From positions 1 to 37,734 of the IMG/VR virus record IMGVR_UViG_3300044631_001997: a stretch of 37,734 nucleotides of DNA; one strand, given 5' to 3'. This document shows positions 4,899-37,734 of this stretch, piece after piece (position 1 is the first letter of the stretch; every line of letters starts with the position of its first letter). This DNA comes from a virus. The notes beneath the pieces were generated by a model. The model was given only the letters and a program-made list of their open reading frames with translations, did not search any database and was not told the origin of the DNA. Both the position numbers and the translations under genes were made by a program.

Positions 4899-4968
4899 GG
4901 TGATGTTTCCTTGACAGTTGCAGAGGTCCTGGTCGGGCCGGGCCAGTACGGTTTGTGAGCGAGTAGGC

Positions 4969-5985: not shown

Positions 5986-6011
5986 TTTCTATGGATTAGT
6001 GTCCATAGAAA
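5986..6011. promoter_or_regulatory. Perfect 10-bp inverted repeat, candidate operator
   Basis: TTTCTATGGA and TCCATAGAAA are separated by 6 nt. It lies in the 211-bp gene-free stretch 5836-6046, between the stop of the upstream ORF and the start of the Sak4 gene. It is AT-rich against a GC-rich background and has no following T-tract, so a repressor site seems likelier than a terminator. I find no convincing TTGACA-type promoter in the gap. Confidence 0.5.
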
Positions 6012-6046
6012 CTCGCCGGACCAGTTGGGGGCAGCCGGCCAGACCT

Positions 6047-7482: not shown

Positions 7483-7488
7483 CCCCCA

Positions 7489-7516
7489 CCCGTAATGGGA
7501 GCGCGCCGGTTGTCAA
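7489..7516 (-). promoter_or_regulatory. Promoter of the nuclease operon, leaderless type
   Basis: TTGACA (7511-7516), a 16-nt spacer and TACGGG (7489-7494). The -10 ends 6 nt before the ATG, predicting transcription starting at or within a base or two of the start codon. Confidence 0.6.
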
Positions 7517-7896: not shown

Positions 7897-9539
7897 ACGA
7901 TCTCCACGTCCTGCATGACCGTGATGACCACCGGCTTCTTGCCGGTGAGCTTGCGACCGCCCACGTCGATCTGCACGGTTGAGAGGTCGTAGCCCGCGGC
8001 AGCCAGAGCGTCCACGAGGAGGTGGAGCGCCGCCCGGATGTCGTCAGCCGCTACGGTCTTATCCGGCGTGGTCTGGGCCGGCACAGGCGCCAACGGCGGC
8101 GCAGGCGCGGGAGCTTTCACAGGCTGGGCCAGTGCGTGCAGGCGCCGGAACTCTGCCGTGGTCAGCGAAGTCCACGGCATCCCGACACGCGCCAAGTGGT
8201 TCTTCAGCTTCTGCTTGGGGAGGTGGGGGTAGTCCTTCAGGAAGCCCAACGCTACCTCCTCGTGGGACTTGGAGCCCGCGATGGGGTCAGGGGCGGCAGC
8301 GCGGGGGGTGGCGGCGATGCGGGCGGCGGGGGCGGGGGCGACGGGAGCCGCGCGCTCCTTGAACATCTCGCGGACGGCTTCGAGGCGCGCTGGGTAGACC
8401 ACCGTCGGGTCCTGCTTGGACGAGCCGAAGACGAGGATGCCACACGCGCGGCGCAGCAGGGCAAGCTGCGGCGGGGCGATGGTCGGGAACTCCTCGGTGA
8501 CGTCCACCGTCGGGTCGTCCGCGAGGAACTTCAACGCCTTCTGGAACAGGGAGCTTGGCGGCAGGGTGGCGAGGTCGACCGGCCCCTGGTCCACGAAGAA
8601 TCCCGGAAGGCCGGTGTCCGGATGGGGCAACTTCGCCTCGTCACACGCCGCGTAGAAGGCGGGCTGGAGGTAGATGCCGCCGCTCTGTGAGTTCCCCAGC
8701 ACCGTGTCGATCCCGAGTTCCCGTCGAGCAGCTCGGCTCCGCTCCGCGGAGAGGCCGAACTTCTCATGGAGCACATGGAACGGCGCGCTGGGGTTGTGGA
8801 GGAGGAAGGTGCGGACATTGGACGGCGTAGCCGGCGGCATGGTGATCTCGGTGTTGGGAGGGGGAGGCGAGAGCGCCGGTGGGATGTTGCGGTCACGGCA
8901 GGCGTTTCGGTAGATGGGCCAGTCGAACGGGTGGGCGCCGACGTCGAGGAGTGCTCGGTGGAGCTGCTCGTCGGGCACGTTGAGGAGCGTAGGCGTGTCC
9001 TCGACTTCGCGGGGGAATGTCGCTGCGACCTCAGCTCGGATCACCTTGCGGTAGTTCTCGAACGTGTCGCTCGGCTGTCGGCAGGCCAGATCTCGGAGCC
9101 GAGCGTTCTTCCAGCGAGCCACGGCGGCCTTCTCGTCGGCCGTGAGCGTAGCTGGGGCCGGTTCCACGGCGGGCGCAACCGGGACAGGCACCGGGTTGCT
9201 GGAGTAGGTGAAGCCGGCCCGCCGGAACGACTCGATGCACTCGGTCGCCTTGAACGAGCCCGTCACGGTGGGGACTCCGGCAGCTTTCGCCATCGCCGCG
9301 CCTTGCTGGGAGAGGGAGTGGCTCGACTGGGAGATCATCAGGAACACCAGCTCACACCCAGCCGGTATGCCACCCGTCGCGGGGGGCTTATGGCTCCAGT
9401 GCCACTGGACCAGTACGGGCCGCCCATCCTTGCGAAACTTCGAGAGGACGTTGGGAAGTGTACGGTTGGCGAAGCCGTTGTCTCCGCCAACCACGAGGGC
9501 TTTGATCGGAGAGAGCGGGGCAGGTTTGGAGTCGGTCAT
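7893..9539 (-). CDS. DUF2325-like multidomain protein of unknown function
   Basis: 548 residues, ATG 6 nt after a strong -10. The first ~100 residues resemble DUF2325: the opening beta strand and Gly-rich turn IKALVVGGDNGFA, a middle segment GCELVFLMISQSSHSLS, and AKAAGVPTV near the end. After a Pro/Ala/Val linker come two or three helical modules, one like a helix-turn-helix (FHVLHEKFGLSAERSRAARR). A second Pro/Ala-rich linker precedes the beta-like C-terminus (VGGRKLTGKKPVVITVM). This looks like a scaffold or DNA-associated protein built from beads on flexible linkers. The DUF2325 match is by eye and tentative. Confidence 0.7.
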   Translation of the reverse strand: MTDSKPAPLSPIKALVVGGDNGFANRTLPNVLSKFRKDGRPVLVQWHWSHKPPATGGIPAGCELVFLMISQSSHSLSQQGAAMAKAAGVPTVTGSFKATECIESFRRAGFTYSSNPVPVPVAPAVEPAPATLTADEKAAVARWKNARLRDLACRQPSDTFENYRKVIRAEVAATFPREVEDTPTLLNVPDEQLHRALLDVGAHPFDWPIYRNACRDRNIPPALSPPPPNTEITMPPATPSNVRTFLLHNPSAPFHVLHEKFGLSAERSRAARRELGIDTVLGNSQSGGIYLQPAFYAACDEAKLPHPDTGLPGFFVDQGPVDLATLPPSSLFQKALKFLADDPTVDVTEEFPTIAPPQLALLRRACGILVFGSSKQDPTVVYPARLEAVREMFKERAAPVAPAPAARIAATPRAAAPDPIAGSKSHEEVALGFLKDYPHLPKQKLKNHLARVGMPWTSLTTAEFRRLHALAQPVKAPAPAPPLAPVPAQTTPDKTVAADDIRAALHLLVDALAAAGYDLSTVQIDVGGRKLTGKKPVVITVMQDVEIV

Positions 9540-9545
9540 GGGGCA

Positions 9546-9574
9546 ATCCTATCCTGGGTCCAGTTGTTTGTCAA
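9546..9574 (-). promoter_or_regulatory. Strong leaderless-type promoter
   Basis: TTGACA (9569-9574), 17-nt spacer, TAGGAT (9546-9551), then 6 nt to the ATG. It fits the 48-bp gap between two genes and is the best match in the window to the shared promoter pattern. Confidence 0.75.
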
Positions 9575-9587
9575 TCATGTATCTACA

Positions 9588-11627
9588 TTATTCGTCATCA
9601 TCATCGTAGAACGTCAGCTTTCCAATGATGCTCGCCACGATGGCCTCTTGGTCCTCGATGCCGCCAAGCACCGCCCCCGCGGCCGCGAGTTCCGAGTCGA
9701 GGACGATCTTCTCGATGGCGGGGAGCTTGCTGATGAGGATGCCCGCGACGTGCTCGTCAATCGTCTGCTCTGCGATCACGTAGTACACGATGCAGGGCCG
9801 GTCCTGCCCTTGACGGAAGAACCTGCCTTCCCACTGCCGCAACTGCCCCGGTGTGTACGGGAGCATCACGAAGAACGCGGCATCCGTCCGCTGGAGGTTG
9901 ATGGACTCTCCGAACGCATCGCCGGTCCCGACGAACACGCACGGCCCTGTGTGGTCCATGTAGTCGTCTACGATCTGCTGGCGCAGCGTGTCTGGCTGGC
10001 CGCCGTGGGCCGCCCAGATCTGCACGTCCTTCCCGAGCACCCGGCGCAGCTCCTTGCCCAGCTCTTCGCAGTCTCGGCGGCGAGCCGTGAAGAGCACGAC
10101 CTTGTGTCCCGAGCGGACGTGATCCTCCACGTACGAGCAGACGACCTTCCGCTTCTTGCTTGCGGCCTCGGCGAGCTTCACCTCGATGACGGCGTTCGCC
10201 CCGCGCGCCTTGGCCTCTCTGATCTCTCGAACGAAGTCGCCAGAGGGCGCGCACTGGTCTTCCGGCGCCACGTAGAGCGAGATTCTCCGCTTCGGCGGGA
10301 GGTTCTTGTGCGTTTCAGCGTACTCGACCCGGTGGACGACGTACCGCAGGCGCTCCACCAACTCGTCGGGGTTGCTGATTCCCTTCGCGTCCATGAAGCC
10401 GTTGTTGTCGCGATGCTTGTTGCAGTAGCGCTTCTCGAAAGAATCGGCGTTGCCCCAAGCATCCGGCTCGGCGAAATCGAGCTGCGACCAGAAGTCTTGC
10501 AGCAGGTTCTTCACGGGCGTAGCTGTCGTGCAGATTCGGCGGCGCACGGATGCCATGCGCGCCAGCTCTCCCCCCGCGACGCTCATGTTGTTCTTGGGGA
10601 CGATCATGGTCCGCGAGCCTTCGTCCTCCGCGATGAAGCCTCCTCGCGACTTCGCCTCCGCGGCCTGCGTCTCGATGACGCTCCGGGAGCCTTCGACGTC
10701 CGAGTCCATCTCCGGCATCGAGCCGAGCGGGATTCGATCCCAGCGCTTGCTGGACTTCCCGCGGTGGCTCTCGTCGAACACGACGATCTCCGGTTTGAGC
10801 TGGCGAAGGAGCGGCAAGTAGCTGGCGAGCGTGTCCCACCCCACGATCACGAAGGGACGAGATTCGGTTTCAGCGCAGCGTTCGAGGTACCGGTCGAACG
10901 TGCTCTCGAACGCTGCATGGATGCGCTTCTGGCGGTCCAGCGCTCGGGCAAGCTGTCTGTCGAGGCGGTGGATGGTGTCCTTGGCCTCCCGCTCGGCTGC
11001 ACGCAGCCGCTTCTCGTCTCGGGGGGTCGCCCCTGTGAGGTCGAGGAACACGGCAGGGTCGGTAGCCCCGCGGCGGAGCTGCCGCAGCTCGTCTACCCGC
11101 CGGTCAATGCTCTCCGGCGACTCCGACGAGGTGTTGCGGAGGATGTAGGGCTGGACCGTGGTGAACCGCGCCAGCTCGCGGGACATCTGGACACGCGCGC
11201 TCGACTTGGTGACGAACACGACCGCCCCCGACGTCAGCAGCGCGAGGAGGTACGCCGTCAGCGTCTTCCCTGCGCCCGTCGCGTGGTGGATGTGGAAGCC
11301 CGGGAGGCTCGCGCCCTTGAGCAGCGCCCCCTTCTGGTGGTCGAGCAGGAAACCCGGCTCCAGAACGTCTGGACGGGCCTCTCCGCCCGTCCTGAGCGCC
11401 TCCTCGACCTGCTCCCATGTCCAAGGCGTCTGCGGAGCCTGCGCCCACGAGACTGCGTGGTAGATGAGCCCGAGCCGATCTACCGCCTTGATGGCGTGCC
11501 ACGGCGCCCAGATCTGGCCTCGAAAGAACTTGACTCCTGGGATCGCGCAGACGGCAACCCGCGCGTCCTCGGAGAGAGGGCCCGTCGTGAGGTGGGCGTA
11601 GGCGCACTTCGGCGGCTTAGGGGGCAT
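9588..11627 (-). CDS. SNF2-type DEAD/H helicase with possible HARP-like N-terminus
   Basis: 679 residues. Helicase motifs are in order: motif I HHATGAGKT (~113-121), motif II VVFDESH, motif III TATP, and in the second lobe GESINLQRTDAAFF and QWEGRFFRQGQ (motifs V and VI). This is the layout of superfamily 2 SNF2 ATPases. The first ~50 residues (AIPGVKFFRGQIWAPWHAI) recall the HARP motif of SMARCAL1-like annealing helicases, which rewind forked DNA. A charged, probably coiled segment is inserted after motif Ia. The C-terminus is acidic (FYDDDDE). The likely role is remodelling replication forks or displacing proteins from DNA; the HARP match is suggestive only. Confidence 0.88.
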   Translation of the reverse strand: MPPKPPKCAYAHLTTGPLSEDARVAVCAIPGVKFFRGQIWAPWHAIKAVDRLGLIYHAVSWAQAPQTPWTWEQVEEALRTGGEARPDVLEPGFLLDHQKGALLKGASLPGFHIHHATGAGKTLTAYLLALLTSGAVVFVTKSSARVQMSRELARFTTVQPYILRNTSSESPESIDRRVDELRQLRRGATDPAVFLDLTGATPRDEKRLRAAEREAKDTIHRLDRQLARALDRQKRIHAAFESTFDRYLERCAETESRPFVIVGWDTLASYLPLLRQLKPEIVVFDESHRGKSSKRWDRIPLGSMPEMDSDVEGSRSVIETQAAEAKSRGGFIAEDEGSRTMIVPKNNMSVAGGELARMASVRRRICTTATPVKNLLQDFWSQLDFAEPDAWGNADSFEKRYCNKHRDNNGFMDAKGISNPDELVERLRYVVHRVEYAETHKNLPPKRRISLYVAPEDQCAPSGDFVREIREAKARGANAVIEVKLAEAASKKRKVVCSYVEDHVRSGHKVVLFTARRRDCEELGKELRRVLGKDVQIWAAHGGQPDTLRQQIVDDYMDHTGPCVFVGTGDAFGESINLQRTDAAFFVMLPYTPGQLRQWEGRFFRQGQDRPCIVYYVIAEQTIDEHVAGILISKLPAIEKIVLDSELAAAGAVLGGIEDQEAIVASIIGKLTFYDDDDE

Positions 11628-12048
11628 CCTTCTCGCGGTCCTCGATCCACTTGAGGACCCTCGGATCCTTCGGCGAGATCGTGAGAAGAAGCGCTTGCGC
11701 CCGGTCGAGGAGCGTGCGGGAATCGAACGCGCGGTTCCGTCGCGCCTTGACGCCAGCCGCCGCTTCGAGGAGGCGAAGCTCGACGCGCCCGAGGGCGAAG
11801 GCCGTTCGGTTGCGGCGCGTCAGAAGCTCGCTCCGGTTGCCCATGCCCTCCCGGAGGTTCAGGTTCGCCGCGCGGAGAGAGGTCTGGATCTTCAGCTTCT
11901 TCCGGACGAGAGCGAGCCGCCAGCGAACGGCATTCTCTGGCTCGCGCAGCTCCGCCGCCATCTCTGGCGAGACTTGCTCGGGCCGCATCGTGTCGTCCTC
12001 GACCAGCTCATTGAAGGGCGCATCGAGCAAGGTTGCGACGGTGTTCAT
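11617..12048 (-). CDS. Hypothetical Arg/Leu-rich helical protein
   Basis: 143 residues, overlapping the helicase start by 11 nt. It is almost entirely helical and rich in Arg, Leu, Ala and Glu (AVRWRLALVRKKLKIQTSL, VELRLLEAAAGVKARRNR), consistent with a coiled coil or small DNA-binding protein. The acidic N-terminus may be flexible. It probably works with the following helicase, given the overlap. No family is recognised. The 88 bp upstream (12049-12136) contain no obvious promoter. Confidence 0.6.
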   Translation of the reverse strand: MNTVATLLDAPFNELVEDDTMRPEQVSPEMAAELREPENAVRWRLALVRKKLKIQTSLRAANLNLREGMGNRSELLTRRNRTAFALGRVELRLLEAAAGVKARRNRAFDSRTLLDRAQALLLTISPKDPRVLKWIEDREKDAP

Positions 12049-12136
12049 GGCTCACAGGTGGAGGGAGGGCAGGCTCCCGGAAACGGGCCTTTGGGTGCGC
12101 GTGAAGCGGTGGGAAGCACGCCACCGAACAGAGGAA

Positions 12137-12472
12137 TCACGCGCAGGCTACGTTCCCGGGAGCTTGCCAAGGTGAGAGCCCGGCCAACCAGCGCGGGCGA
12201 AGGTGAAAGATGGGGTCGCCAGAGATGGCGTCCCACCCAACGTAACCACTGCACTGCTCGGAAGCCCGCTCGAACAACTCGGCGTCGAGGATCTCCTGCT
12301 GACCGCAGGAACCACAAACCAGAAGGTCCGCACAGGTGTCGAGCAGGTCGAGTCCGATCTCCTCCATGAGGTAGTCGATGGCAGCCGCCGTCGCCGGCAT
12401 CCCAGCCCGGTGGCGGTGGAAGGCACCACAGGCCGGGCACAGCTCCAGCTCTGCTTCGAGGATGCGGCTCAT
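12137..12472 (-). CDS. Zinc-ribbon protein
   Basis: 111 residues, with ATG overlapping the vWA gene stop (ATGA). Two CxxC knuckles (CPAC at 12-15 and CGSC near 53-56) frame a helical stretch (AAAIDYLMEEIGLDLLDTC), so one zinc site is likely. The C-terminal part is acidic, then aromatic (YVGWDAISGDPIFHL). Its function is unknown; its position suggests it assists the vWA protein or the helicase. Confidence 0.65.
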   Translation of the reverse strand: MSRILEAELELCPACGAFHRHRAGMPATAAAIDYLMEEIGLDLLDTCADLLVCGSCGQQEILDAELFERASEQCSGYVGWDAISGDPIFHLRPRWLAGLSPWQAPGNVACA

Positions 12473-14952
12473 TCGGCTTCGACGGACGAGATTGCCTTCG
12501 CCGCAGCCACACCTGCCGGGGTCGAGAAGGGGACGTTCTCCGCGTAGACGCCAAGGACCATCAGCGTCTGTCCCTCGATCTTGTCGAGGACGAAGAAGGT
12601 GCCGTTCTCCTTCTGCTTCTTGGTCAGGCCGAGCGTCGGGATGCGCGCCTTGAGGCTGTCAGCATCGAGCGCCGGCACCTCGCCCCAGGTGTCGGGGAGC
12701 ATGCCGGTGGAACCGATGTAGAACGCAGCGGGCCGGACCTGACTGCTGTAGAGGCCCTCCTGGTACTCCTCGACGTACTTCTTGATCTCGACGAGCTTCT
12801 CCGGCAGGTAGTCCGCGAGCCACTTGCCCGAGTAGCCGGTCTCCTTGAGCAGCGCCGTGATGGTCATGAAGTGCTCCTTGTTGTACCCGACGCGGAAGAA
12901 GTCACAGATGTACGGGAGGGTGAAGGCATCCACCGAGTTGAGCTTCTTCGGCGGCGTCAGCGAGATCGAGACGCCATCCGCGAGCGCATCAGCGACCGTG
13001 AACTTCTCCAGCTCCTTGTCGTCCTTCTTGGCCGTCAGGTATCGCTGCACCGCCGCGTTGGCCGAGTACAGGTCTCCGAGCCCCGCGATGTCCGTCCCGA
13101 GGAACTCGACCTTGTAGCTCGTCCGGAGGTCTACCAACCCCGTCGCCACGGCAACGGCCAGATCGGTGTAGGGCGTCGTCGTCGGCGGCGAGAAGTTGAG
13201 CTTGGCCGTGAGGTCGTGCGCCGACAGATCGGCCTTCTGCTCGTCCGTCAGGTCGAGAGCGGCCTCGCCGCCGGCCGGAAGAGCGGCGTTGATGAGGCTC
13301 AGCAGGATCTTGCAGCCGGCGAGCTGGCTGAACACGTCCATGGGCGGAGCTAGGTCGCTGGCGTAGTCGAGGACCGGAAGCTCGGTCAGGTCGATGACGT
13401 GGGGCTGGCCGGGTCGGAAGCCGTTGTCTTCCGCCACACCGAGGGAGACGAGCGATCGCCAGAGGCTCTGGGTCGCCACGAAGATCGGGAGCACCTTGGC
13501 GTTGACCGTACCGTCTCCGACGAGGGTGTAGAAGTTGTGCTGGCGCAGATCGAGCTTCTGTCCTCCCACCATCGGGATGACCTTGCCCGTCTTGGCGTCG
13601 GTCAGGTTCGCCTTCTGCGTCACGAGCATGTTGATCGTAGCCGTGGAGTTGTTGAACTCGAACGCCGAGACCGAGAGGCAGGTCTGGTCCTCCGTGCTCA
13701 CCAGATTGTATGACGCGGGGACGAAGGTGGTCTCGTTCGTCTCCGGGTCGGTCACCCAGCTCCCCTGAAGACGCTTCAGCCCGCGCTTCTGGTAGCCCGC
13801 GAGGAAGGTGGGGAGGTCGAGAGACCACGAGTTCCGGTGGTGGAGGAGGATGTCGCAGAGCTGCGGGATCGAACACTTCCCTCCCGACAGCCCGTAGCCG
13901 GTGCCCTCCGCGGTGTAGACACCAGGACGACCGTAGAGCGCCCCGTCGAGGGCCTCAGCGAAGTCCGCGAGCTGCTCCGGCGTGATGGCCTTGGCGAACT
14001 GCCCGAGCCGGGCGTCGCGGGTCGTGACGAAGGCGTACTTCGCGTCGTTGAGGCGGCCGGCGGCCAGCGAGGTACGGGCGAAGGCGTAGATGGGCGTGAG
14101 GTCGCCGTTCTCGACTTCCTGCGACTTGCGGTAGGCCGCTTCCGTTACCTGCCGGAAGCGCCAGACCCGCGGCGTCTCGTCGGGGCTCAGGCCGCGGAGC
14201 GTGATGTCCTGCGCGGTCCCGTTGACCTTGCGCGCCTTCGGGGCGTAGGCGACCTGCCACGAGCCGTCGGAGTCCAACGTGACCGAAGGCACGGTGCGGC
14301 CGGCGAGCAGCTTGGACGTGTCGTGGAGCGCTTGGTAGACGTCCTTGGCAGTCGAAGCTCGGACCATCTTGCCGGAGAGCGCGTTGGCCATTCGATCGAG
14401 CAGAACGTAGTCACACCAGCCGCCATAGGCGATGGTGTTCACGAACACGTTCTTGGCCGGGCGCATCTGTTCGATCCAACGGTCGATGGCGCGCTGCTCC
14501 AGCGTCGGGGAACGGTCGTTGAAATAGCCGTCGGTGTGGACGCTGACGCCGGTCGTCTCGGTAGGGCGGACGAGCTTGGAGGCGTACTCCAGAGCCTGCG
14601 AGACGCAGGTGAACGCGGTGGCGCGGAGCTGGCGGATCGACTCGACGTGGTGGGAGCCTGGAGCGAGGACATCCTGCACGGGCGTCCGCTCGAAGTGGAC
14701 CGTGAGGTCGCCCTGCGAGGAGTAGGACAACAGGCTGACGAGCTGGCCGGCGTTGGCGAACTCCTCGATGGTCAGCACCTTCTCGACCATCGAGCGAAGC
14801 TCGGTCATCGAGTAGTACATGGAGCCGGAGCGGTCGACCACGAGGATGTGGTGCCCGACCTCCGCGGAGAGCGAAACCGGAGGGAGCGTCCGCTCCTCGG
14901 CGATGAAGAACTTCTTGATCTGACCAGCGTAGTTTCGGAGGGCGAACTTCAT
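12469..14952 (-). CDS. Large von Willebrand factor A (MIDAS) protein
   Basis: 827 residues, preceded by GGAG. The first ~200 residues form a vWA domain: beta strand HILVVD, MIDAS DRSGSM at 40-45, a Thr-containing segment (RATAFTCVSQAL), and GVSVHTDGYFNDR holding the third metal-site Asp. The remaining ~600 residues have no motif I recognise. They mix beta-rich segments and helices (EQLADFAEALDGALYG, KYVEEYQEGLYSSQV). vWA proteins bind partners through a Mg-dependent site and often team with MoxR-type ATPases. None is nearby, but two helicases are in or next to this operon. A role as a protein-interaction scaffold is inferred. Confidence 0.82.
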   Translation of the reverse strand: MKFALRNYAGQIKKFFIAEERTLPPVSLSAEVGHHILVVDRSGSMYYSMTELRSMVEKVLTIEEFANAGQLVSLLSYSSQGDLTVHFERTPVQDVLAPGSHHVESIRQLRATAFTCVSQALEYASKLVRPTETTGVSVHTDGYFNDRSPTLEQRAIDRWIEQMRPAKNVFVNTIAYGGWCDYVLLDRMANALSGKMVRASTAKDVYQALHDTSKLLAGRTVPSVTLDSDGSWQVAYAPKARKVNGTAQDITLRGLSPDETPRVWRFRQVTEAAYRKSQEVENGDLTPIYAFARTSLAAGRLNDAKYAFVTTRDARLGQFAKAITPEQLADFAEALDGALYGRPGVYTAEGTGYGLSGGKCSIPQLCDILLHHRNSWSLDLPTFLAGYQKRGLKRLQGSWVTDPETNETTFVPASYNLVSTEDQTCLSVSAFEFNNSTATINMLVTQKANLTDAKTGKVIPMVGGQKLDLRQHNFYTLVGDGTVNAKVLPIFVATQSLWRSLVSLGVAEDNGFRPGQPHVIDLTELPVLDYASDLAPPMDVFSQLAGCKILLSLINAALPAGGEAALDLTDEQKADLSAHDLTAKLNFSPPTTTPYTDLAVAVATGLVDLRTSYKVEFLGTDIAGLGDLYSANAAVQRYLTAKKDDKELEKFTVADALADGVSISLTPPKKLNSVDAFTLPYICDFFRVGYNKEHFMTITALLKETGYSGKWLADYLPEKLVEIKKYVEEYQEGLYSSQVRPAAFYIGSTGMLPDTWGEVPALDADSLKARIPTLGLTKKQKENGTFFVLDKIEGQTLMVLGVYAENVPFSTPAGVAAAKAISSVEAE

Positions 14953-15063
14953 GGGGGTGCTCCGGGTGCAGGATGGCAGGTTGTGGGATCAGGGCGCACG
15001 AGTGCCCGAACCCCTGCTGCTGGTTGGGCGGCAGGGGTCAGCGGGCAGGGTCGGCGGGGAGCG

Positions 15064-16140
15064 CTACTTGACTTCGCGCAGTTCGGACTTGGCGAAGTTC
15101 GCCAGCTCTTCCCAGAGCGGGGTGAGCAGGGCGAAGAGCGGCGCGATGAGCTTGACCGAGTGGCCGATGACCGCGTAGCGGGCGGCGGCCTTGACCCCGT
15201 CGGCGTTCACCGGGATGCGCTCCGGGAACGTGGCGGCGAGGAAGTAGAGGAGCACCGGGGCACCGTAGGAGAGGCCGCGGCGGCCGAGAGGGGTCTTGAG
15301 CAGCGCCGGGTACATCGGCGCGCTGCCGAACTTGCTCTCGATGGTCTCGACGAGGCGGTCGGCCAGCTCGGACGCGAGCCCGGCCTTGATGCCCGTGGCG
15401 GTCGCCTCCTTGAGCATGTCGAGGGTTTCGGAAGCGGAGGCGGAGAAGTCGGCGGGGCGGTTGGCCATGTTGTTGTCCTTGCTGGTTGAAGATGGGGCGG
15501 CGGCGCCTGCGAGAGCGCCCAGTAGTTCGGAAGTCCGATCTGAGGGAGCACGCAAGACAGAGGTCGAGCGACACCACGAGGAGATCTGCGCGTCGGAGTA
15601 GTTCGTGGGCTTGCCGCTCACGGAGTTCCACTGGTTGAGGCCCGTCTTGCCAAAGAGCGTACCTACTACGCTCGTCTGGAGCGTCGAGCCGACAGCGGCC
15701 TGCTGGATGTCGTAGAGCGAGATGGTCATGGAAGGCTCCGGAGGAGTTGCAGGGACAGCAGGCCCCAGTTCAGTGACGATGATGTCCCCCGAAGTGAGGG
15801 TGCTGGTTTCTTCCCGCGCGTGCCGAGTCCATTCTCCAGCCAACGTAGATCGCATCCAGACCACAGATCCCGGAGGCAAGGAGCGGTACACCGCAGCGTC
15901 CTTCCCCTCTGGCACGGCGACCTGCGTCTGATGGAACAAGGCGGTAGGTTCGTCAGAGAGCTGACGGCTGGAAGCGAGACCACCAGCACGCATGATGAGC
16001 CGCCATGCAGGCTCATTCTCCGAGACCTTCTTGTAGGCATACGACGCAGTGCCAAGCATGATCTGCACGATCGACCCGAGACGAGCACCTTGTAGGTTCG
16101 ACAGGGTGGCTGGCAGGACTGGCAGGGTGGGGGGGTTCAT
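15064..16140 (-). CDS. Hypothetical protein with possible internal starts
   Basis: 358 residues. Three segments are visible: a beta-like N-terminal part with PPGSVVWMRSTLAGEW; a middle beginning MTISLYDIQQAAVGS (~residue 137); and a helical C-terminal part from Met225 (MANRPADFSASASETLDML), which ends in SELREVK and has a hydrophobic patch (LSYGAPVLLYFLAATF). Both internal methionines have purine-rich upstream sequence (AAGGA about 8 nt before Met225), so a separate 134-residue product from 15064-15468 is possible. No family is recognised. The 111 bp to the next gene (14953-15063) hold no promoter. Confidence 0.6.
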   Translation of the reverse strand: MNPPTLPVLPATLSNLQGARLGSIVQIMLGTASYAYKKVSENEPAWRLIMRAGGLASSRQLSDEPTALFHQTQVAVPEGKDAAVYRSLPPGSVVWMRSTLAGEWTRHAREETSTLTSGDIIVTELGPAVPATPPEPSMTISLYDIQQAAVGSTLQTSVVGTLFGKTGLNQWNSVSGKPTNYSDAQISSWCRSTSVLRAPSDRTSELLGALAGAAAPSSTSKDNNMANRPADFSASASETLDMLKEATATGIKAGLASELADRLVETIESKFGSAPMYPALLKTPLGRRGLSYGAPVLLYFLAATFPERIPVNADGVKAAARYAVIGHSVKLIAPLFALLTPLWEELANFAKSELREVK

Positions 16141-18588: not shown

Positions 18589-18782
18589 GCTTTGGGGGTG
18601 ATTCGGGTGGAGACGTCGCCCTGCGTACACCAGCAGTCGCCCTCTCGGACTTGGGCTGTGGCGGGGTCGCAGGCTTCTTCGCAGAGTGCGGCTCGACGAG
18701 TGGCGGCGGGCTCAGGCAACAGGACGGCGAGGAACATGATGCTCACGACGAACCCAACAAAGAAGGCCATGAAGGCGTTCAC
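18573..18782 (-). CDS. Small membrane protein
   Basis: 69 residues from a GTG overlapping the phosphoribosyltransferase stop (GTGA). Residues 4-24 are a hydrophobic segment (FMAFFVGFVVSIMFLAVLLP), a likely single transmembrane helix or uncleaved signal. Four cysteines follow in a short polar tail (CEEACDPATA, GDCWCTQG), which could pair as disulfides outside the membrane. The topology and role are unknown; its place behind the NAD genes may be accidental. Confidence 0.6.
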   Translation of the reverse strand: MNAFMAFFVGFVVSIMFLAVLLPEPAATRRAALCEEACDPATAQVREGDCWCTQGDVSTRITPKAWTTP

Positions 18783-20242
18783 AGGCGGCCTGCTGCGACG
18801 CGGTCGCGGATCTCAGCGAGGGTAGGCAGGTTCATCGAGTAGCCGTTGCTGAAGACCTTTCGGAACTCGCAGTGCGTCACGTCATGCCACGAAGCCTGCT
18901 GCTTGAGGAAGAGCTTGTCCTCGGCGTCACGGAACACCGCAAGCAGCCCCCGCGCGGACTTCTTGGTGCCGTCGTCGGTCTTCGGGTCCTTGAAGATCTC
19001 CCGCAGCTCTCCTTCGACGGAACAGGCGGTCGCCTTCATCGCGAAGCCGAAGGTATCTCGCGTGTTGTACTGGTAGGTGTACGATCCGATGCCGAGGACC
19101 ATGCCCGGCACGAAGCCCTTCGCCATGAGCCCCGCACAGATCTGTGCGGCTCGGTCGAGGGTGATGGAGTCCCCGTAGATGAGCCCGATGTGGGGGTCGA
19201 GCACCTTGTAGCCCTTGTCGGTGACGGTCCCTCCGAACAGCTCCCAGGCCAGCTCGAAGGAGCCCTTGAACGCGGGGGAGCCTTCGGGGGCGTCGATGTC
19301 GCCACAGATGACCTTCACCGGGTCTCCACTGTCGGGACGGATGACCAGCTTGCCATCTCGCTGGAGGATCACGTCGCGGAGCTGAGGAAGGATGTTCGTC
19401 CAGACGCCCCAGTAGTCCCAGGTGTCCGAGACGATGGACGCAATCCCCGTCGGGTAGACCTCAGTGAGCAGGCGCCGGTAGGTTTCCACCTCGCCTTCCT
19501 TCGACCCGGCGCACATCACCGAGTGCTCGGTCGCGGGGACCGACCCGGCAACCAGCTCCGTGTCGACGTCGGCCCCGTAGTATTCCTCCACGAAGTCTAC
19601 GGCGAAGACCGTGTCGGAGCCCGTGAATGAGGTGAGGTGACCCGCGCCCGACAGAGCCGCGGATTCGACCCCGGCCATCCCGCGGGCCGAGAAGTCGTGA
19701 GCCTGCCAGCTCACGAACTCGGGAGCGCCGCCAGTGGTCTTGGCGACGTGGTCGAGGATGCGGCGGTACTCGGCCGCGAGGGTCGCCGAGGTGGTCGCCT
19801 GCCAGATCGTGTTCGAGAGACTCGTCTCCAAGTAGTTGGTGAGCCACGAGAAGTCGCAGTGCGTGTTCCAGATCACGAAGCTCGGCACTCCGATGGGAAC
19901 GCGCGTCCCTTCCGGGAGGCTCCAGATCTCGATGGGGAGGTAGCCGAGGTCGTGCAGGGCTTCCATGTGGTCTGGGTGGGCGGTCACGCCGAACGCCGCC
20001 AGCCGGCGGATGTACTTCTTGATGACCTTCTCCTTGGGCTGCGAGAAGAAGTGCTCGGTCCAGCCACGCTCCAGAAGCTCCTGGATGTAGTAGGAGAGGC
20101 CGAAGTGGATGGTCTCCTCGATCCCCGGGATGCGGCTCTTGCGTCCAGTCCAGTTGGAGAAGACCAGATCGGTACCCGGCGGGTACTGGCGGCGGTGGTC
20201 AGCCTTGTAGCTGTCGATGATGTGCTGGGTGGGGATGCGCAT
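18779..20242 (-). CDS. Nicotinamide phosphoribosyltransferase family enzyme (NadV/NAMPT or Namat type)
   Basis: 487 residues, the family's usual length. Motifs match NAMPT throughout: DSYKADHRRQYPPGT at the N-terminus; WQAHDFSARG and TSFTGSDTVFA around the nicotinamide pocket; SVPATEHSV with the catalytic His; IVSDTWDYW; VIRPDSGDP, which binds phosphoribose; and IYGDSITLD. Known members join nicotinamide to PRPP to give NMN. In the phage NARP1 pathway a paralogue (Namat) joins nicotinamide to ADP-ribose pyrophosphate and makes NAD+ directly. The adjacent PRPP-synthetase homologue, 7 bp away, fits either route. I cannot separate the two chemistries from sequence alone. Confidence 0.92.
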   Translation of the reverse strand: MRIPTQHIIDSYKADHRRQYPPGTDLVFSNWTGRKSRIPGIEETIHFGLSYYIQELLERGWTEHFFSQPKEKVIKKYIRRLAAFGVTAHPDHMEALHDLGYLPIEIWSLPEGTRVPIGVPSFVIWNTHCDFSWLTNYLETSLSNTIWQATTSATLAAEYRRILDHVAKTTGGAPEFVSWQAHDFSARGMAGVESAALSGAGHLTSFTGSDTVFAVDFVEEYYGADVDTELVAGSVPATEHSVMCAGSKEGEVETYRRLLTEVYPTGIASIVSDTWDYWGVWTNILPQLRDVILQRDGKLVIRPDSGDPVKVICGDIDAPEGSPAFKGSFELAWELFGGTVTDKGYKVLDPHIGLIYGDSITLDRAAQICAGLMAKGFVPGMVLGIGSYTYQYNTRDTFGFAMKATACSVEGELREIFKDPKTDDGTKKSARGLLAVFRDAEDKLFLKQQASWHDVTHCEFRKVFSNGYSMNLPTLAEIRDRVAAGRL

Positions 20243-20249
20243 GGGAGAC

Positions 20250-21014
20250 TCAGTAGCGGGGGTAGTGGGGGAAGAAATCGTAGTTGTCGCTGGCGGCGTA
20301 GACGTGGTCGAACGCAGGAGAGAGCACTTCGCGGCCCTTGGTGAAGAGGCCGTGCGAGACGACCAGAGTCAACTTCGCGGCGCCGTTCTCTCGCAGGAGC
20401 TTGGCCAGCCCGAGGAACGTGCCGCCGGCATCGCAGATGTCGTCCACGATCACACAGTCTCGGCCCTTCACCTTGTCCGCGTCGAGCAACTGGAAGTTGG
20501 AGAGCTTGCCGGTCGCCGTGTCTCGTTGCTTGAGGCCCTGCACGTAGTCGTTCCGGCCGAGCCAGGTGTACGCCTTCTTGGTCGCGCCTGCGTCGGGGAT
20601 GACGAACAGGTCGGTGGGAAGGATGAAGCCTACGCTGCGGAATCGAGCCACAACGCTTGCTTGGGTGATGTGGGGAAGCTGCCCCGCCACATCGGAATGG
20701 GGGTCGAGGATGACCACGTTGAGGTTCTCCCGACGCACGAGGTCGAGCGCCAGCTCCAGCTCGAACCCATCGTTGGGTGTGCTGCGCCGGTCGTCGCGGG
20801 CGAACGGGAAGTAGGGGATGTACCACTCGATCTCGACGTCGTTGTAGATCCGCTTCATCAGCCGATTGGCTACGACTACATCGCAGAGGTCGTTGAAGTT
20901 GCGGACATCCGCTCGGATCGTCCCGAGGCCGTCTCCCAGCACGATCTTCTTCAGGTGGGTTTCCCCCGAAGGGTAGGTCGTCCGTGCGAACACGTCCTTG
21001 AAGTTGACCGGCAT
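20250..21014 (-). CDS. PRPP-synthetase family enzyme (Prs or Adps type)
   Basis: 254 residues, shorter than cellular ribose-phosphate pyrophosphokinases (about 310). It shows PYFPFARDDRR (the family's ATP/metal segment), LDPHSD, a flexible-loop-like stretch, and VIVDDICDAGGTFL (PRPP-loop type). The second, regulatory lobe appears trimmed, as in phage versions. It either makes PRPP from ribose-5-phosphate or, as Adps of the NARP1 pathway, pyrophosphorylates ADP-ribose. The next gene uses such a product with nicotinamide. Together they should rebuild NAD+ during infection. The promoter is not obvious; a strong GC hairpin (21048-21070) precedes the gene. Confidence 0.88.
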   Translation of the reverse strand: MPVNFKDVFARTTYPSGETHLKKIVLGDGLGTIRADVRNFNDLCDVVVANRLMKRIYNDVEIEWYIPYFPFARDDRRSTPNDGFELELALDLVRRENLNVVILDPHSDVAGQLPHITQASVVARFRSVGFILPTDLFVIPDAGATKKAYTWLGRNDYVQGLKQRDTATGKLSNFQLLDADKVKGRDCVIVDDICDAGGTFLGLAKLLRENGAAKLTLVVSHGLFTKGREVLSPAFDHVYAASDNYDFFPHYPRY

Positions 21015-21047
21015 TGGTCTATTCCGGAAGGAGGTAGAAGTGGTGGA

Positions 21048-21070
21048 GCGGCCGCATAGCCGGCGGCCGC
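21048..21070. repeat. GC hairpin made of two NotI-like palindromes
   Basis: GCGGCCGC (21048-21055) and GCGGCCGC (21063-21070) pair across a 7-nt loop. It lies between the tRNA-like units and the Prs-family gene. It could end or mark the tRNA-like transcript, or sit in the leader of the NAD operon. No T-tract follows. Confidence 0.5.
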
Positions 21071-21153
21071 CCCTGGGTTATCCGGCTTGATAGGCCAGTT
21101 GTCGAGTGTCGTGTTCTCCCCTCAACAGCTTTCGTCCACGCTCTGAACTTAGA

Positions 21154-21254
21154 ATCCGCGAGATAACGATTACTCTATCGGGCCATTGTGCAGGAAGAGA
21201 GGGGCTTCCTGCGTAGGTGGCGGCCCGAGCCGGACTTGAACCAGCATCTCGGAT
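21154..21254 (-). tRNA. Candidate circularly permuted tRNA gene (unit 2)
   Basis: On the minus strand the 3' half comes first: ATCCG (21254-21250), AGAT, T-arm GCTGG-TTCAAGT-CCGGC (21245-21229), acceptor TCGGGCC (21228-21222), G, CCA (21220-21218). After a 33-nt linker comes the 5' half: acceptor GGCCCGA (21184-21178), TA, D-arm GAG...CTC with A14, A15, G18 and A21 in place but T19 not G, G26, then CGGAT (21158-21154). Acceptor pairing is 7/7 and anticodon stem 5/5. Beyond the stem, leader TCGCCACGC (21269-21261) pairs with trailer GCGTGG-A-CGA (21141-21132). The anticodon is not certain, since the loop must be formed by joining; position 33 reads C in the simplest register. Confidence 0.5.
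21190..21212. repeat. Perfect hairpin inside the linker of tRNA-like unit 2
   Basis: GCAGGAAG and CTTCCTGC form an 8-bp stem with a 7-nt loop. It occupies most of the 33-nt segment between the encoded CCA and the 5' acceptor strand. Such a hairpin would bring the two halves together and could be the processing target. Confidence 0.6.
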
Positions 21255-21322
21255 TGGGTGGCGTGGCGACTGAGATTTGTGGGCACTCGACTGAGGCAAA
21301 CTATACGAGGAACTTATCACTT

Positions 21323-21412
21323 CTCTCGCCCATTATAGTGGGTGCGTCTACCATTCCGCCACCCCGGCTCAGTTGGTTGGTGCCGGGGGCTGGGCTTGAA
21401 CCAGCAAGAGAG
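21323..21412 (-). tRNA. Candidate circularly permuted tRNA gene (unit 1, Leu-like D-arm)
   Basis: The 3' half comes first: T-arm GCTGG-TTCAAGC-CCAGC (21405-21389), acceptor CCCCGGC (21388-21382), A73, CCA (21380-21378). A 9-nt linker (21377-21369) leads into a leucine-tRNA-like 5' half: acceptor GCCGGGG (21368-21362), TG, and D-arm GCG-GAATGGTAGA-CGC. Acceptor pairing is 7/7. A CCCA-CTATAA-TGGG arm follows, one base short of a normal anticodon loop. GAGAG (21327-21323) can pair with CTCTC (21412-21408) as a long variable arm, which would put the break in that arm. The anticodon assignment is doubtful. Confidence 0.4.
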
Positions 21413-21460
21413 TTGGGTGAGAATCAGTCTGATCGTGACAGTGAGCTATGCCTCGGTGGA

Positions 21461-21481
21461 GCCCGGTCCTTTCGGCCGGGC
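21461..21481. terminator. GC hairpin after the DUF7873-like gene
   Basis: GCCCGGTC-CTTTC-GGCCGGGC forms 8 pairs (one G-T) about 22 nt beyond the stop at 21504. On the transcribed strand the wobble becomes an A-C mismatch. No T-run follows. It may end the 22992-21504 operon or flank the tRNA-like units. Confidence 0.35.
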
Positions 21482-21503
21482 AGGGGTGGAAGGTTGCGGG
21501 GGA

Positions 21504-33394: not shown

Positions 33395-34633
33395 GTGATT
33401 ACAGAAGCAGAGGTTCGAGATGCAGTATTCCGTGCGCTACCCCCAGAATCATTCGTGCGAAAGTATGTAGAGTACGCCCAACGCCAGACCTCAGCTCCTC
33501 TCGGCTACCATCTCGCTTGTGCGATCACGCTCCTCGGAACGACGGTCCCCGTGCCCTACGGGACGTTCTACGCCGGCTCGCTCCGGGCCAACCTGTTTAC
33601 CATGCTCGTCGGCCGGTCGGGTGAGGACCAGAAGTCCTCTGCGCTCGGCATTGCGCGCGAGCTGCTGTTCGAGGCGATCCCCCCGCTCATCGGCGACTTC
33701 CCGGGCTCGGCCGAAGGCTTGATTGACTCGCTCCAGCGGCAGCCCACGCAGATGATTCCGATCTCCGAGCTGGGCAAGTTCCTGTCCTCCGCCCAGCAGG
33801 GGTACTTCGAGCCCACCAAGGCGCTCATGGCGGACCTCTGGGACTCGCTCCCGACGCAGCGGGCGAAGGCGAACGGCAAGGTGGTCCGGTGCGACCATCC
33901 GAGGCTCTCGATGCTCGCGGCCTGCTCGCTCCCCTACTTGGAGCGCTACACCGACGACACCGACTGGTCCGGTGGCTTCATGGGCCGCTGGGCGGTCATC
34001 TACGCTCGCCGCGAGCGGACGGACCCGGATCCCAAGGGTGACCGCATCGGCTTCGACGAGTTGAAGCAGACCCTGTACGACCGCGGGACGCGCCCGTCAC
34101 TCGGCTTCTGCATGGGGCTTGACAAGGAAGCCGGGGCCATCTGGGCAGACTGGTTCAACGACGTCTCCCGGCGCGACCTTCCCGCTCAGGTGGTTGGTGT
34201 TCGGGCTCGTGCCCCTACGATCGCCCGCAAGGTCGCGCTGCTCTACGGGTCGGACTTCGGCCCCGCGCACCTCGACCAGGATTGGTACGTCACGAAGAAG
34301 GAGTTGATTCCTGCGATCTTGTTCACTGAGTTGCACATCAAGTCGCTTGTGGGGCTCTCCGATCACATCTGCTCCAGCAATGACGCCCGCCAGCGGCGCG
34401 CCGTGCTCGGCATCCTCGCGGAGGAGGGCGGATACGCCTCTCTCGGCACGATCCTCAACCGGCTCAAGCTCAAGAAGCGCACCGTGATGGAGACGCTCGA
34501 CGCCCTCACCTGCGAAGGCTTGGTCGCTCGCGCCACTCTCATGGGCGGCTCGGACGCCGGGGGCTTCTACACGCTGGTCGACCCTCTGGCGCACCACGTC
34601 GAAGACCACTCGGCCGACGACTCGGGGAGCTAA
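33395..34633 (+). CDS. DUF3987-like primase/helicase relative
   Basis: 412 residues from a GTG; the only clearly real plus-strand gene. The N-terminal part (FVRKYVEYAQRQTSAPLGYH then LRANLFTMLVGRSGEDQKSS) has the layout of DUF3987-type phage/plasmid ATPases, but the P-loop reads GRSGEDQKSS rather than GxxxxGKS, so nucleotide binding may be altered. ALMADLWDSLPTQRAKANG and LSMLAACSLPYL follow as in that family. The C-terminus looks like a winged helix (RAVLGILAEEGGYASLGTI, LDALTCEGLVARA). It could be a replication initiator or loader. It converges with the next gene, overlapping by 4 bp. Confidence 0.75.
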   Translation: MITEAEVRDAVFRALPPESFVRKYVEYAQRQTSAPLGYHLACAITLLGTTVPVPYGTFYAGSLRANLFTMLVGRSGEDQKSSALGIARELLFEAIPPLIGDFPGSAEGLIDSLQRQPTQMIPISELGKFLSSAQQGYFEPTKALMADLWDSLPTQRAKANGKVVRCDHPRLSMLAACSLPYLERYTDDTDWSGGFMGRWAVIYARRERTDPDPKGDRIGFDELKQTLYDRGTRPSLGFCMGLDKEAGAIWADWFNDVSRRDLPAQVVGVRARAPTIARKVALLYGSDFGPAHLDQDWYVTKKELIPAILFTELHIKSLVGLSDHICSSNDARQRRAVLGILAEEGGYASLGTILNRLKLKKRTVMETLDALTCEGLVARATLMGGSDAGGFYTLVDPLAHHVEDHSADDSGS

Positions 34634-35229
34634 CCGCCCTGCGGGATGAGTGCTGCGCGGGACTTCGCCTCAGCCAGCGAGGTGTAAGCTCCCCCAAACT
34701 GCTCCTTCTTCTGGCGCGGCTCGCAGTACAGGAGGTAGTACGACTCCATGTGCTGGTCGATGTGCAGCTTGTAGCCGTTCGCGCTCGCGTGGTAATCCCA
34801 GGGGCCGCGCTTCCGCCACTTGAGTTCGATCGGGTTCTTTCGTCCGGCACTCTTGCGTGGAAAGTAGCCGCCCCAGTTCGCCGAGACTGCCGGATCGAGT
34901 CCGCGCGCCTTGAGGTAGGACCGCGAGTAGATCGACCCCTGTCCGTTGTAGTTGCCGACGACGCACTCCTTGGCATCTTCGCGGAACTCCCAACCGGAGA
35001 GGATCTTGCCCTGGAGGACCACGTAGAAGCGGTACGCGGCACGGTCTGGCGCCCGTGGGTTTGCGCGGCGGCCCGCACCGGGCTTCTTGCGTGCGGCCAG
35101 CTTGGCCAGCTCGCGGTCAATCTCGTCGATCTCCTCCGCCAGCTCAATGCTACGCCCACCACGGCGCTTGAACTCGTTCCAGAGGGCGAGACGGTCTGCG
35201 GCAAGCTGTTGTGCGTAGGTTCGGGACAT
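34630..35229 (-). CDS. Hypothetical basic protein
   Basis: 199 residues. A helical basic N-terminus (DRLALWNEFKRRGGRSIELA, KPGAGRRANPRAPDR) leads into a beta-rich domain (YRFYVVLQGKILSGWEFRE, GNYNGQGSIYSRSYL, GYKLHIDQHMESYYLLYCE). This may be a DNA-binding protein. No family is named. Its stop overlaps the end of the convergent plus-strand gene. Confidence 0.7.
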   Translation of the reverse strand: MSRTYAQQLAADRLALWNEFKRRGGRSIELAEEIDEIDRELAKLAARKKPGAGRRANPRAPDRAAYRFYVVLQGKILSGWEFREDAKECVVGNYNGQGSIYSRSYLKARGLDPAVSANWGGYFPRKSAGRKNPIELKWRKRGPWDYHASANGYKLHIDQHMESYYLLYCEPRQKKEQFGGAYTSLAEAKSRAALIPQGG

Positions 35230-35811: not shown

Positions 35812-36372
35812 TCAGCTAACCCGTTCGACCGGGACGTGCCAATCCACCGCGAAAGCCGTCCGGCATCGAGGGCAGGCTACGTGGTAGGCGAACTCGCCCT
35901 CTGCGTGGAGGTTGGCCTCACAGACAGGGCAGGTGAACGTCAGGTCTATCGACGCCCCCTTCCACTGGAAGCTCGCGGAGAGGGGCTCTTCGGTCAGAGG
36001 GGCCCAGTGGAAGAACGGGGCGCGGGGGTCGCGTTGGTTGGGGGGCGTGAACTCGGGAGAATCTCCCATTGCCGCTTCGATCTCATCCAGCACATCCGCG
36101 TACTCTGCGATCAAGAGGCAGTACGGGTAGTCCCCCTCCGGGCCGCAGTACCGAACCAGTCGGACAGTCGATCCAATCTGCCACTGTGCCCCAGGTGGTC
36201 CGCTGTCCTCATCGGCCGTCAGGGCGTTCCCACTGACAAGACCGACTGCCCCGGTGCAGGTGTGGTAACACGGGGTGTCGTGATCGTGGATGTCGAGACA
36301 GCCTCTGGTCTCCGGCCCCAACGTCCCGTAGAAGATCACGTCATTCGGGGCAGGAGTCACTCGATGAGTCAT
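35812..36372 (-). CDS. Hypothetical protein with C-terminal zinc ribbon
   Basis: 186 residues. The N-terminal part is Cys/His-rich (TRGCLDIHDHDTPCYHTCTG). A beta/alpha middle follows (VRLVRYCGPEGDYPYCLLI, ADVLDEIEAAMGDS). The last ~45 residues form a ribbon (CPVCEANLHAEGEF ... CPRCRTAFAVDW). Likely a metal-binding structural or regulatory protein. The 8-bp gap to the upstream gene suggests one operon with the recombinase-like protein. Confidence 0.65.
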   Translation of the reverse strand: MTHRVTPAPNDVIFYGTLGPETRGCLDIHDHDTPCYHTCTGAVGLVSGNALTADEDSGPPGAQWQIGSTVRLVRYCGPEGDYPYCLLIAEYADVLDEIEAAMGDSPEFTPPNQRDPRAPFFHWAPLTEEPLSASFQWKGASIDLTFTCPVCEANLHAEGEFAYHVACPRCRTAFAVDWHVPVERVS

Positions 36373-36380
36373 GGTACGCC

Positions 36381-37142
36381 TCAGAGCTTGGACAGAAGGT
36401 CGCTGGACGAGAACCGAGGCTGAGCGGGCTCAGGAGCCGCTCGGGGGCGGGGGGTAGCCTTCGGGTCGAACGGCAAGCTCGCGCTGTCCTCGGGGGCCAA
36501 GGGCAGCGAGTAGAGCGTCTCCAAGTCGCCCCGCGAGAGGGGCACGAGCGACTCGGGCACCTCGGGGAACAGGGGGGCCTCCTCGACAGGCCACTCATCC
36601 TCCGCGGCGAGTGCCGGCCACGCCCACTCTCGGTAGCGCAGCACCTCGGCCAGCGCGAGCGAAGCGGTCCGCTTGCCGTCACCGTACAGGAGCGTCACCA
36701 GTGGAAGGGCGCTGCCCTGCTCCAGCGTCGCTCGCACGCCTGCTTGCACATGCCCCCACCGGAGCCCGTGCAGTTCCTTCGCAGGCACGCCGAGCTGCTT
36801 GAGGAAGCGGCGCATGGGCAGGCGGTCCACCTGCGGCGTGCGGGAAACCACGACGACCGGCTTGGGGGCCCGGCCCGAGGGGAAGTCGGGCAGGCTGAAC
36901 CGCGACAGCTCCTCGTCCTGCGCGCAGAAGGTCCGGTACGCCCGCCACCCAGCCTGCGCAATCGAGTAGTGCGACGGCTTGTAGCGCTGGAGGCTCGCCA
37001 GGAGCAACTCCGGCGTCATGGGCGTCTCGACCCCCTCCAAGAGCTTCTTGGGCCACTTGGCGTACTGATACGCGGTCGCGGGGTTGTAGTTGTTCGCGAG
37101 GAGCCACTGGAAGAACAGGTCGGTGGGGTCGAAGGACATCAT
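36381..37142 (-). CDS. Tyrosine-recombinase-like protein lacking visible catalytic C-terminus
   Basis: 253 residues from ATG 37142, which lies 6 nt after the -10; GTG 37148 is in frame. The N-terminal ~90 residues (DLFFQWLLANNYNPATAYQY, LASLQRYKPSHYSIAQAGWR) resemble the SAM-like core-binding domain of phage integrases. ELHGLRWGHVQAG recalls the first catalytic-Arg motif. No H-x-x-R or active-site Tyr follows; instead an acidic, Pro-rich tail begins near residue 170. It may be a decayed integrase or an arm-site-binding factor. The resemblance is by eye and weak. Confidence 0.6.
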   Translation of the reverse strand: MMSFDPTDLFFQWLLANNYNPATAYQYAKWPKKLLEGVETPMTPELLLASLQRYKPSHYSIAQAGWRAYRTFCAQDEELSRFSLPDFPSGRAPKPVVVVSRTPQVDRLPMRRFLKQLGVPAKELHGLRWGHVQAGVRATLEQGSALPLVTLLYGDGKRTASLALAEVLRYREWAWPALAAEDEWPVEEAPLFPEVPESLVPLSRGDLETLYSLPLAPEDSASLPFDPKATPRPRAAPEPAQPRFSSSDLLSKL

Positions 37143-37148
37143 GCCCAC

Positions 37149-37177
37149 CCTCTACCCTGCCCTTGCGCCCCTGTCAA
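37149..37177 (-). promoter_or_regulatory. Leaderless-type promoter next to the tandem repeats
   Basis: TTGACA (37172-37177), 17-nt spacer, TAGAGG (37149-37154), then 6 nt to the ATG at 37142. The -35 touches the first copy of the 78-bp repeat. Confidence 0.7.
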
Positions 37178-37322
37178 GCGATAAGAAATAAGTGATGGGG
37201 TGCTGTTGAGTATTCACGCGGGCGCGCGAGAATCCCTCACTTATTGCTGGGTGCAGCGATAAGAAATAAGTGATGGGGTGCTGTTGAGTATTCACGCGGG
37301 CGCGCGAGAATCCCTCACTTAT
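37177..37322. repeat. Two 78-bp direct repeats
   Basis: Bases 37177-37244 and 37255-37322 are identical over 68 bp, with a 10-bp gap unique to the first. Each copy has AATAAGTGA and, 41 nt later, TCACTTAT, which can pair, and a GC core (ATTCACGCGGGCGCGCG). A partial third copy of the left part (AAGAAATAAGTGATGG) lies at 37426-37441. Function could be origin iterons, operators or a recombination site. Confidence 0.85.
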
Positions 37323-37353
37323 CACTTACTCCCTTCCTCCTTCTCCTGCTCTC

Positions 37354-37423
37354 GGCGCCTTGGCGCCGGCTATCTGTCCTTTAGGACAAAGCTCTCCCGA
37401 CCCCCTCTCTAAAGAGAGGGGGT
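37354..37423. repeat. Three consecutive perfect snap-back hairpins
   Basis: GGCGCC-TT-GGCGCC (37354-37367), TGTCCT-TT-AGGACA (37375-37388) and ACCCCCTCTCT-AA-AGAGAGGGGGT (37400-37423), with stems of 6, 6 and 11 bp and 2-nt loops. Such a series is unlikely by chance and does not code. Confidence 0.75.
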
Positions 37424-37424
37424 G

Positions 37425-37492
37425 TAAGAAATAAGTGATGGTGTGGTCCTTCGCATACGTGAAGGCGTCAGGACCCCATTAGTTATTTCTTA
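37425..37492. repeat. Long inverted repeat
   Basis: TAAGAAATAA (37425-37434) pairs with TTATTTCTTA (37483-37492), and inside it GGTCCT (37445-37450) with AGGACC (37470-37475), giving a two-part cruciform. It reuses the start of the 78-bp repeat. The 104 bp from 37493 to 37596 contain short GC repeats (CTGGAAGCGGC twice) and no gene I can support. Confidence 0.7.
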
Positions 37493-37596
37493 TTGCTTAT
37501 CCTCCGGAGCCGACTGGAAGCGGCCTGGCGCCGCCTGGAAGCGGCGCGTGGGGGTGAGGGAAAGGAGGGACACGGGCATGGTTCGCAGCCTATCAG

Positions 37597-37734
37597 CTAT
37601 CGCGCAAGCCGGCAACGCTGTTCGTCAATCATCGCGCGCACCTGTTCGATAGTGGCGGGCTGACCTGAGAACTTCGCTGCTGGAACCAGCGGGGTGTCAG
37701 CCGGATCCACCATGTCTGGCGACCGCCACGCTCG
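37597..37734 (-). CDS. C-terminal end of an unknown protein (5' end beyond window or ATG 37713)
   Basis: An open frame from the right edge to a TAG at 37597-37599. It reads ...SPDMVDPADTPLVPAAKFS and QVRAMIDEQRCRLAR at the end. An internal ATG at 37713 would give a 38-residue peptide. No promoter is seen inside the window, so a longer gene entering from the right is likelier. The composition is like the real genes here, but the piece is short. Confidence 0.4.
   Translation of the reverse strand, partial: RAWRSPDMVDPADTPLVPAAKFSGQPATIEQVRAMIDEQRCRLAR

Follow-up and report, generated by a model that had tools for sequence, protein, structure and literature searches.

The closest described counterparts of the locus analyzed here are replication origins built from repeated initiator sites. 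According to the excerpted account, lambda ori comprises inverted 19-bp iterons and a 40-bp A+T-rich region (PMC5043065). The PLE1 origin of a Vibrio cholerae phage satellite is described, in the portion cited, as three ~30-bp semi-palindromic RepA iterons within a noncoding region (PMC8263062), and the baculovirus hr regions appear, in a partial text, as AT-rich imperfect palindromes that have been proposed to be replication origins (PMC6669502). The array described here lies at 37177–37493 of the window, i.e., the whole 37,734-bp stretch of viral DNA that was analyzed. Like lambda ori, it is an array of inverted repeats (here predicted to be initiator sites) next to A+T-rich DNA within the early region of a phage (PMC5043065); whereas lambda, as given in that excerpt, has four near-palindromic 19-bp O-protein iterons inside the O gene, our locus contains three widely spaced inverted pairs with 7-bp sub-repeats in a 449-bp intergenic gap, and no O-like protein was found. 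As in PLE1, a noncoding region holds three semi-palindromic repeats that contain inverted sub-repeats (PMC8263062), but the PLE iterons are, in the same portion, ~30 bp long with close sub-repeats, while here the centres of the two arms are ~49 bp from each other with a core between them, and no RepA-type protein was found. The hr regions offer only a looser analogy in their AT-rich imperfect palindromes (PMC6669502); they belong to a eukaryotic virus and are portrayed there as 30-bp palindromes at several hr loci per genome, in contrast to the one locus seen here. By analogy, the array may work like lambda ori or the PLE1 origin. The A+T-rich DNA of an iteron-type replication origin is present, the window's 300-bp GC minimum falling at the array; as to the cognate initiator of such an origin, the protein encoded next door (36381–37142) has no family match. 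Because no initiator is recognizable, we do not file the array among iteron origins; what this orphan phage carries is an unproven example of a familiar kind of element.

The viral record is a linear fragment, and genes for DNA replication take up much of it. The window encodes a UDG/family-A DNA polymerase, a Sak4-like protein, a PD-(D/E)XK nuclease, SNF2-type and Dda-like helicases, a nicotinamide phosphoribosyltransferase and a PRPP-synthetase-like protein, and a DUF3987/primase-like gene (33395–34633) is located 2.5 kb from the array. A search with the polymerase led to two contigs of the same phage, G001 and G002, which match window positions 1–27053 and 1–15597, respectively, at 99.97–100%, save for a difference in the polymerase gene, and which both stop short of the array end of the window at 37 kb. 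One same-phage contig extends beyond the polymerase by a further 25.9 kb, in which a helicase and a tyrosine integrase are encoded; the latter looks complete (G002:33365–34645), and the phage, carrying it, may be temperate. No recognized virion gene was found among the 10 proteins scanned in this extension, and the lack of such a gene among the proteins scanned suggests a large phage, with a large genome that the record covers in part. Searches for relatives of the 36381–37142 protein yielded 4 pattern-matched stretches in viral contigs and 34 in genome contigs, none of them confirmed, and tblastn against phages returned nothing. In viral contigs, no stretch was obtained for the DUF3987 gene, one for window protein P0002 and 12 for 34630–35229, again with none confirmed, and the DNA of 36000–37734 found no match among phages and plasmids. 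As no independent relative with the array was found, selection on the array cannot be shown.

The 449-bp gap (37149–37597) separates two leftward reading frames, in agreement with a preliminary description that had placed the repeats in a gene-free region. Tandem Repeats Finder assigned 37177–37322 a period of 78 with 100% matches, and a repeat finder returned two 100% identical 68-nt copies 78 bp apart (units 1 and 2, Table 1), which form the sole exact direct repeat of ≥20 bp across the window. Exactness, coordinates and period were thus as previously described, and so were the AT-rich inverted arms and GC-rich core of each copy. Missed, however, was the greater part of the structure, namely a third, diverged unit (37424–37493) and short hairpins between the units. 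The left arm of unit 3 is that of units 1 and 2, identical across TAAGAAATAAGTGATGG, the right arm is related and inverted, and the core differs in sequence from those of units 1 and 2. The arm spacing in unit 3 agrees with that of the other units to within 1 bp: calculated from coordinates, the centres of the paired half-sites (ATAAGTGA-like words) are 49, 49 and 48 bp apart in the three pairs. The right arm of unit 2 extends 7 bp beyond the exact copy and contains two TAAG words, compared with one in unit 1. Since copies 1 and 2 are identical throughout, their duplication is recent or they have been homogenized, their identity by itself says nothing about selection, and only the comparison with unit 3 is informative. 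Because unit 3 keeps the arms and their spacing without the GC core, the conserved element consists of three inverted half-site pairs.

Table 1. Features of the array and its surroundings (positions refer to the window)
Feature	Coordinates	Strand	Details
Adjacent leftward gene	36381–37142	−	ORF 36381–37148; orphan protein of 253–255 aa; ATG at 37142
Possible promoter	37149–37177	−	TTGACA 37177–37172, 17-bp spacer, weak TAGAGG 37154–37149
Unit 1, exact 68-bp copy	37177–37244		Left arm 37181–37198 (+), right arm 37234–37248 (−; half-site 37234–37251), GC core 37199–37233
Unit 2, exact 68-bp copy	37255–37322		Left arm 37259–37276 (+), right arm 37312–37329 (−)
Hairpin CGGCGC-CTTG-GCGCCG	37353–37368		Short; between units 2 and 3
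Hairpin TGTCC-TTTA-GGACA	37375–37388		Short; between units 2 and 3
Perfect 11-bp hairpin, 2-nt loop	37400–37423		Longest perfect short-loop stem of the window; no T-run after it
Unit 3	37424–37493		Left arm 37424–37441 (+), right arm 37476–37493 (−)
Next gene upstream, C-terminal part	37598–37734	−	Reading frame open to the end of the record

The six repeated half-sites, which are putative binding sites, cluster at one locus (37181–37493). Most of them comprise a pair of TAAG words at a 7-bp distance and, after these, G-rich bases. The gap contains 11 TAAG words compared with 14 in the other 37,148 bp; five same-strand pairs within it are spaced by exactly 7 bp and none by 4–6 or 8–15 bp, no 7-bp pair was found in the window outside the gap, 2000 first-order simulations of the region produced at most one such pair, and an 18-base consensus with ≤3 mismatches had five matches, all in the gap, against a shuffle mean of 0.08; as word and consensus were both picked from the region itself, the figures are a description of clustering rather than independent tests. 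The motif was found neither in the remaining window nor in G001 and G002, including all 41,814 bp of the latter for the half-site pattern, and permissive blastn of the gap against the two contigs gave just 15–19-base matches (E 0.06–0.14). An exact 17-mer had one match in viral contigs (L006), where the paired arm was not seen in the 701 bases read. A 16-base pattern matched once at each of 36 viral loci, which we estimate to be near chance, and a 23-base pattern had no match in genome contigs. In a weight-matrix scan of the loci, with clusters reported for those other than L001–L019, two loci, L046 and L059, had at least two matches in a 150-bp span, and these were weak in each.

The array also stands out in composition and folding, and no other stretch of the window is so rich in hairpins. 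GC content over 300 bp reaches its window minimum in the 37201–37500 segment (52.3%, compared with a mean of 65.1% and sd of 3.4); at the 100-bp scale one other place, 9530–9629, has lower GC. In a GC-corrected window scan, 37351–37500 was the strongest-folding 150-nt segment (z −6.3; next best −2.8). The fold of the minus-strand RNA of 37149–37597 reached z −7.1, with none of 100 shuffles as stable, and that of 37348–37424, which holds the three small hairpins between units 2 and 3, z −5.6. A further hairpin at ~37528–37547 was discarded, as the fold of 37501–37560 was not significant (z −0.88). A terminator scan of 36900–37734 detected no T-run tail, and an Rfam search of the same interval at E up to 1 gave three matches far under the gathering score, which were taken as chance. 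GC skew, which had been suggested as a check, showed no clear switch at 37.2 kb, which counts against an origin, though the record stops ~400 bp past the array. Away from this region, 5836–6591 is a 756-bp gap of low GC without a convincing gene, containing a 10-bp perfect hairpin (5986–6011).

On its left side, unit 1 abuts a minus-strand TTGACA hexamer 30 bp upstream of the ATG, which suggests that whatever binds the array affects the adjacent gene too. The preliminary description had the repeats directly abutting a −35 element; the hexamer indeed overlaps the repeat by one base, but the −10 is poor, its GAGG may alternatively serve as a ribosome-binding site, and no promoter emerged from a sigma-70 consensus scan at the array. 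The same description called the adjacent gene recombinase-like, which sequence searches did not bear out: its product had no match in Pfam, PHROGs, NCBIfam or PDB sequences, the models PF02899, PF00589 and PF13495 had no matches in the window, and BLASTP against the phage's own integrase gave nothing meaningful (best E 1.4). The catalytic set of tyrosine recombinases comprises Arg I, HxxR and Tyr. The 36381–37142 protein has no His after residue 131 and therefore no HxxR box, and so does not carry this set. Modeling of the full-length protein gave a pLDDT of 43, while the N-terminal 93 residues, counted from the ATG at 37142, were modeled as a four-helix domain with a pLDDT of 69.8. Foldseek found no match for this domain at E ≤0.001. 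The top three VIA-align entries were integrases (3lys, 6emy and 6emz; Z 5.5, 5.3 and 5.3; rmsd 3.3–3.7 over 84–89 residues), and 7 of the 19 listed entries were integrases or recombinases by title, with Z at most 5.5, where the tool notes that Z <8 may mean merely a common arrangement. A home-made profile of four integrases ranked the protein 1 of 201 (itself and 200 shuffles) at 3.3 bits, and in this weak alignment Pro occupied the Arg-I box where Arg is expected, which was not repeated with a remade profile. That seven-row profile, one row of which (L066) is a 9-residue fragment, placed the protein under many of 500 shuffles and under at least three of 31 other window proteins. As modeled, the N-terminal domain is weakly like the core-binding domains of tyrosine recombinases (integrases), and a recombinase-like fold is possible for the protein; an active recombinase is unlikely.

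In its sequence anatomy, the array fits a cis-acting multi-site binding array for an initiator or regulator. What the sequence shows directly is where the sites lie and how they are spaced, that they are restricted to a single place, and that AT content and folding are anomalous there; protein binding, origin function and autoregulation we infer. We hypothesize, with a rough probability of 0.4, that it is a replication origin and at the same time controls the neighbouring leftward gene. In this model the inverted half-site pairs would be occupied by an initiator encoded by the phage, after which the AT-rich DNA would open and fork proteins would load; an initiator bound beside the TTGACA hexamer would in addition tune how strongly that gene is expressed. 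The orphan 36381–37142 protein is a candidate for the binder. An improbable variant makes it a catalytically dead relative of tyrosine recombinases, now a sequence-specific origin-binding or regulatory protein that would read paired 7-bp TAAG words in a hairpin-rich origin; such a protein, if the weak fold similarity of its model held, would represent a new type of initiator or control protein. To our knowledge, replication origins have seldom been identified in large uncultivated phages. If the array is an origin, it is compact and testable (449 bp) and offers a lead to the initiator of a phage for which no relative was found except itself.

An operator would leave much the same trace as an origin, and it is a possible, if less probable, reading that the inverted half-sites have no part in replication and instead let a repressor or regulator of the phage control the early leftward gene, whether in autoregulation, an early/late switch or a lysogeny switch. 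The position of unit 1 against the hexamer upstream of the ATG speaks for it, inverted pairs suit dimeric regulators, and the phage, with its tyrosine integrase, is maybe temperate; the array would then mark the control point of the leftward gene block. Yet six half-sites across 313 bp are much for a simple autoregulator, the −10 is weak, and no known DNA-binding regulator family was recognized in the two nearest proteins, sub-threshold zinc-ribbon matches in 35812–36372 aside. Our preference for an origin over a pure operator rests on how many sites there are and on the restriction of the motif to one place, on the hairpins and the AT minimum, and on the setting among replication genes. Of the three functions proposed in the preliminary description, iterons and an autoregulatory site both fit the anatomy, which cannot separate them, while a recombination site has lost ground. 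A site of recombination or integration served by the adjacent protein is the least probable reading of all: the three integrases at the head of the structural matches would point that way, but their Z scores are weak by the tool's own note, the protein matches no recombinase family and lacks the HxxR box, with Pro at Arg I in one weak alignment, and the phage has its complete-looking integrase elsewhere. An attP would lie beside the integrase gene, and that gene is on G002, where the array motif is absent.

It is also unlikely, though more conceivable than a recombination site, that the leftward transcript (37597–37149) folds as a chain of hairpins, making the region a structured non-coding RNA or a long leader. 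The stability of the minus-strand fold relative to shuffles argues for this, as does the core of unit 3, which differs in sequence yet forms a nested hairpin. However, stable folding is to be expected of any inverted repeat, and in units 1 and 3 it is seen for both strands; in our reading the arms match as words, and mismatches between units look non-compensatory; moreover, Rfam gave nothing at gathering score and no terminator-like tail was present. An assembly artefact or a meaningless recent tandem duplication is very improbable, although the complete identity of copies 1 and 2 speaks for it, for the copies differ in both flanks and in their right arms and a third, diverged unit exists. The 68-bp repeat is, moreover, well under the length of an ordinary short read and fits inside one.

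Several further features of the phage were observed. The polymerase gene (210–3962, −) encodes an N-terminal uracil-DNA-glycosylase domain and has an HNH endonuclease match between its two polymerase parts, possibly an intein. In two other samples of the same phage this gene is 288 bp longer (1346 compared with 1250 aa); the extra 288 bp are flanked by 88-bp direct repeats, 98.9% alike, of which the window holds one copy (916–1003, compared with L022 14595–14970), and the length difference is either a deletion or an assembly collapse. In 21015–21503 (−), ARAGORN found no tRNA, and Rfam had no hit at gathering score, nor any to a tRNA when E was allowed up to 1; tRNA 3'-half-like stretches occur at 21218–21245 and 21378–21405, the former, in our reading, after a tRNA-like 5' half near 21368 with ~90 nt inserted. 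The nicotinamide phosphoribosyltransferase gene adjoins a ribose-phosphate pyrophosphokinase gene (18779–21014, −) as an NAD-salvage pair, and an ADP-ribosylglycohydrolase-like gene is present on the other contig of the same phage. Finally, 12469–14952 (−) encodes an 827-aa VWA-domain protein, 95% of which aligns at 35.5% identity with part of LR745208.1, a 485-kb uncultured phage record.
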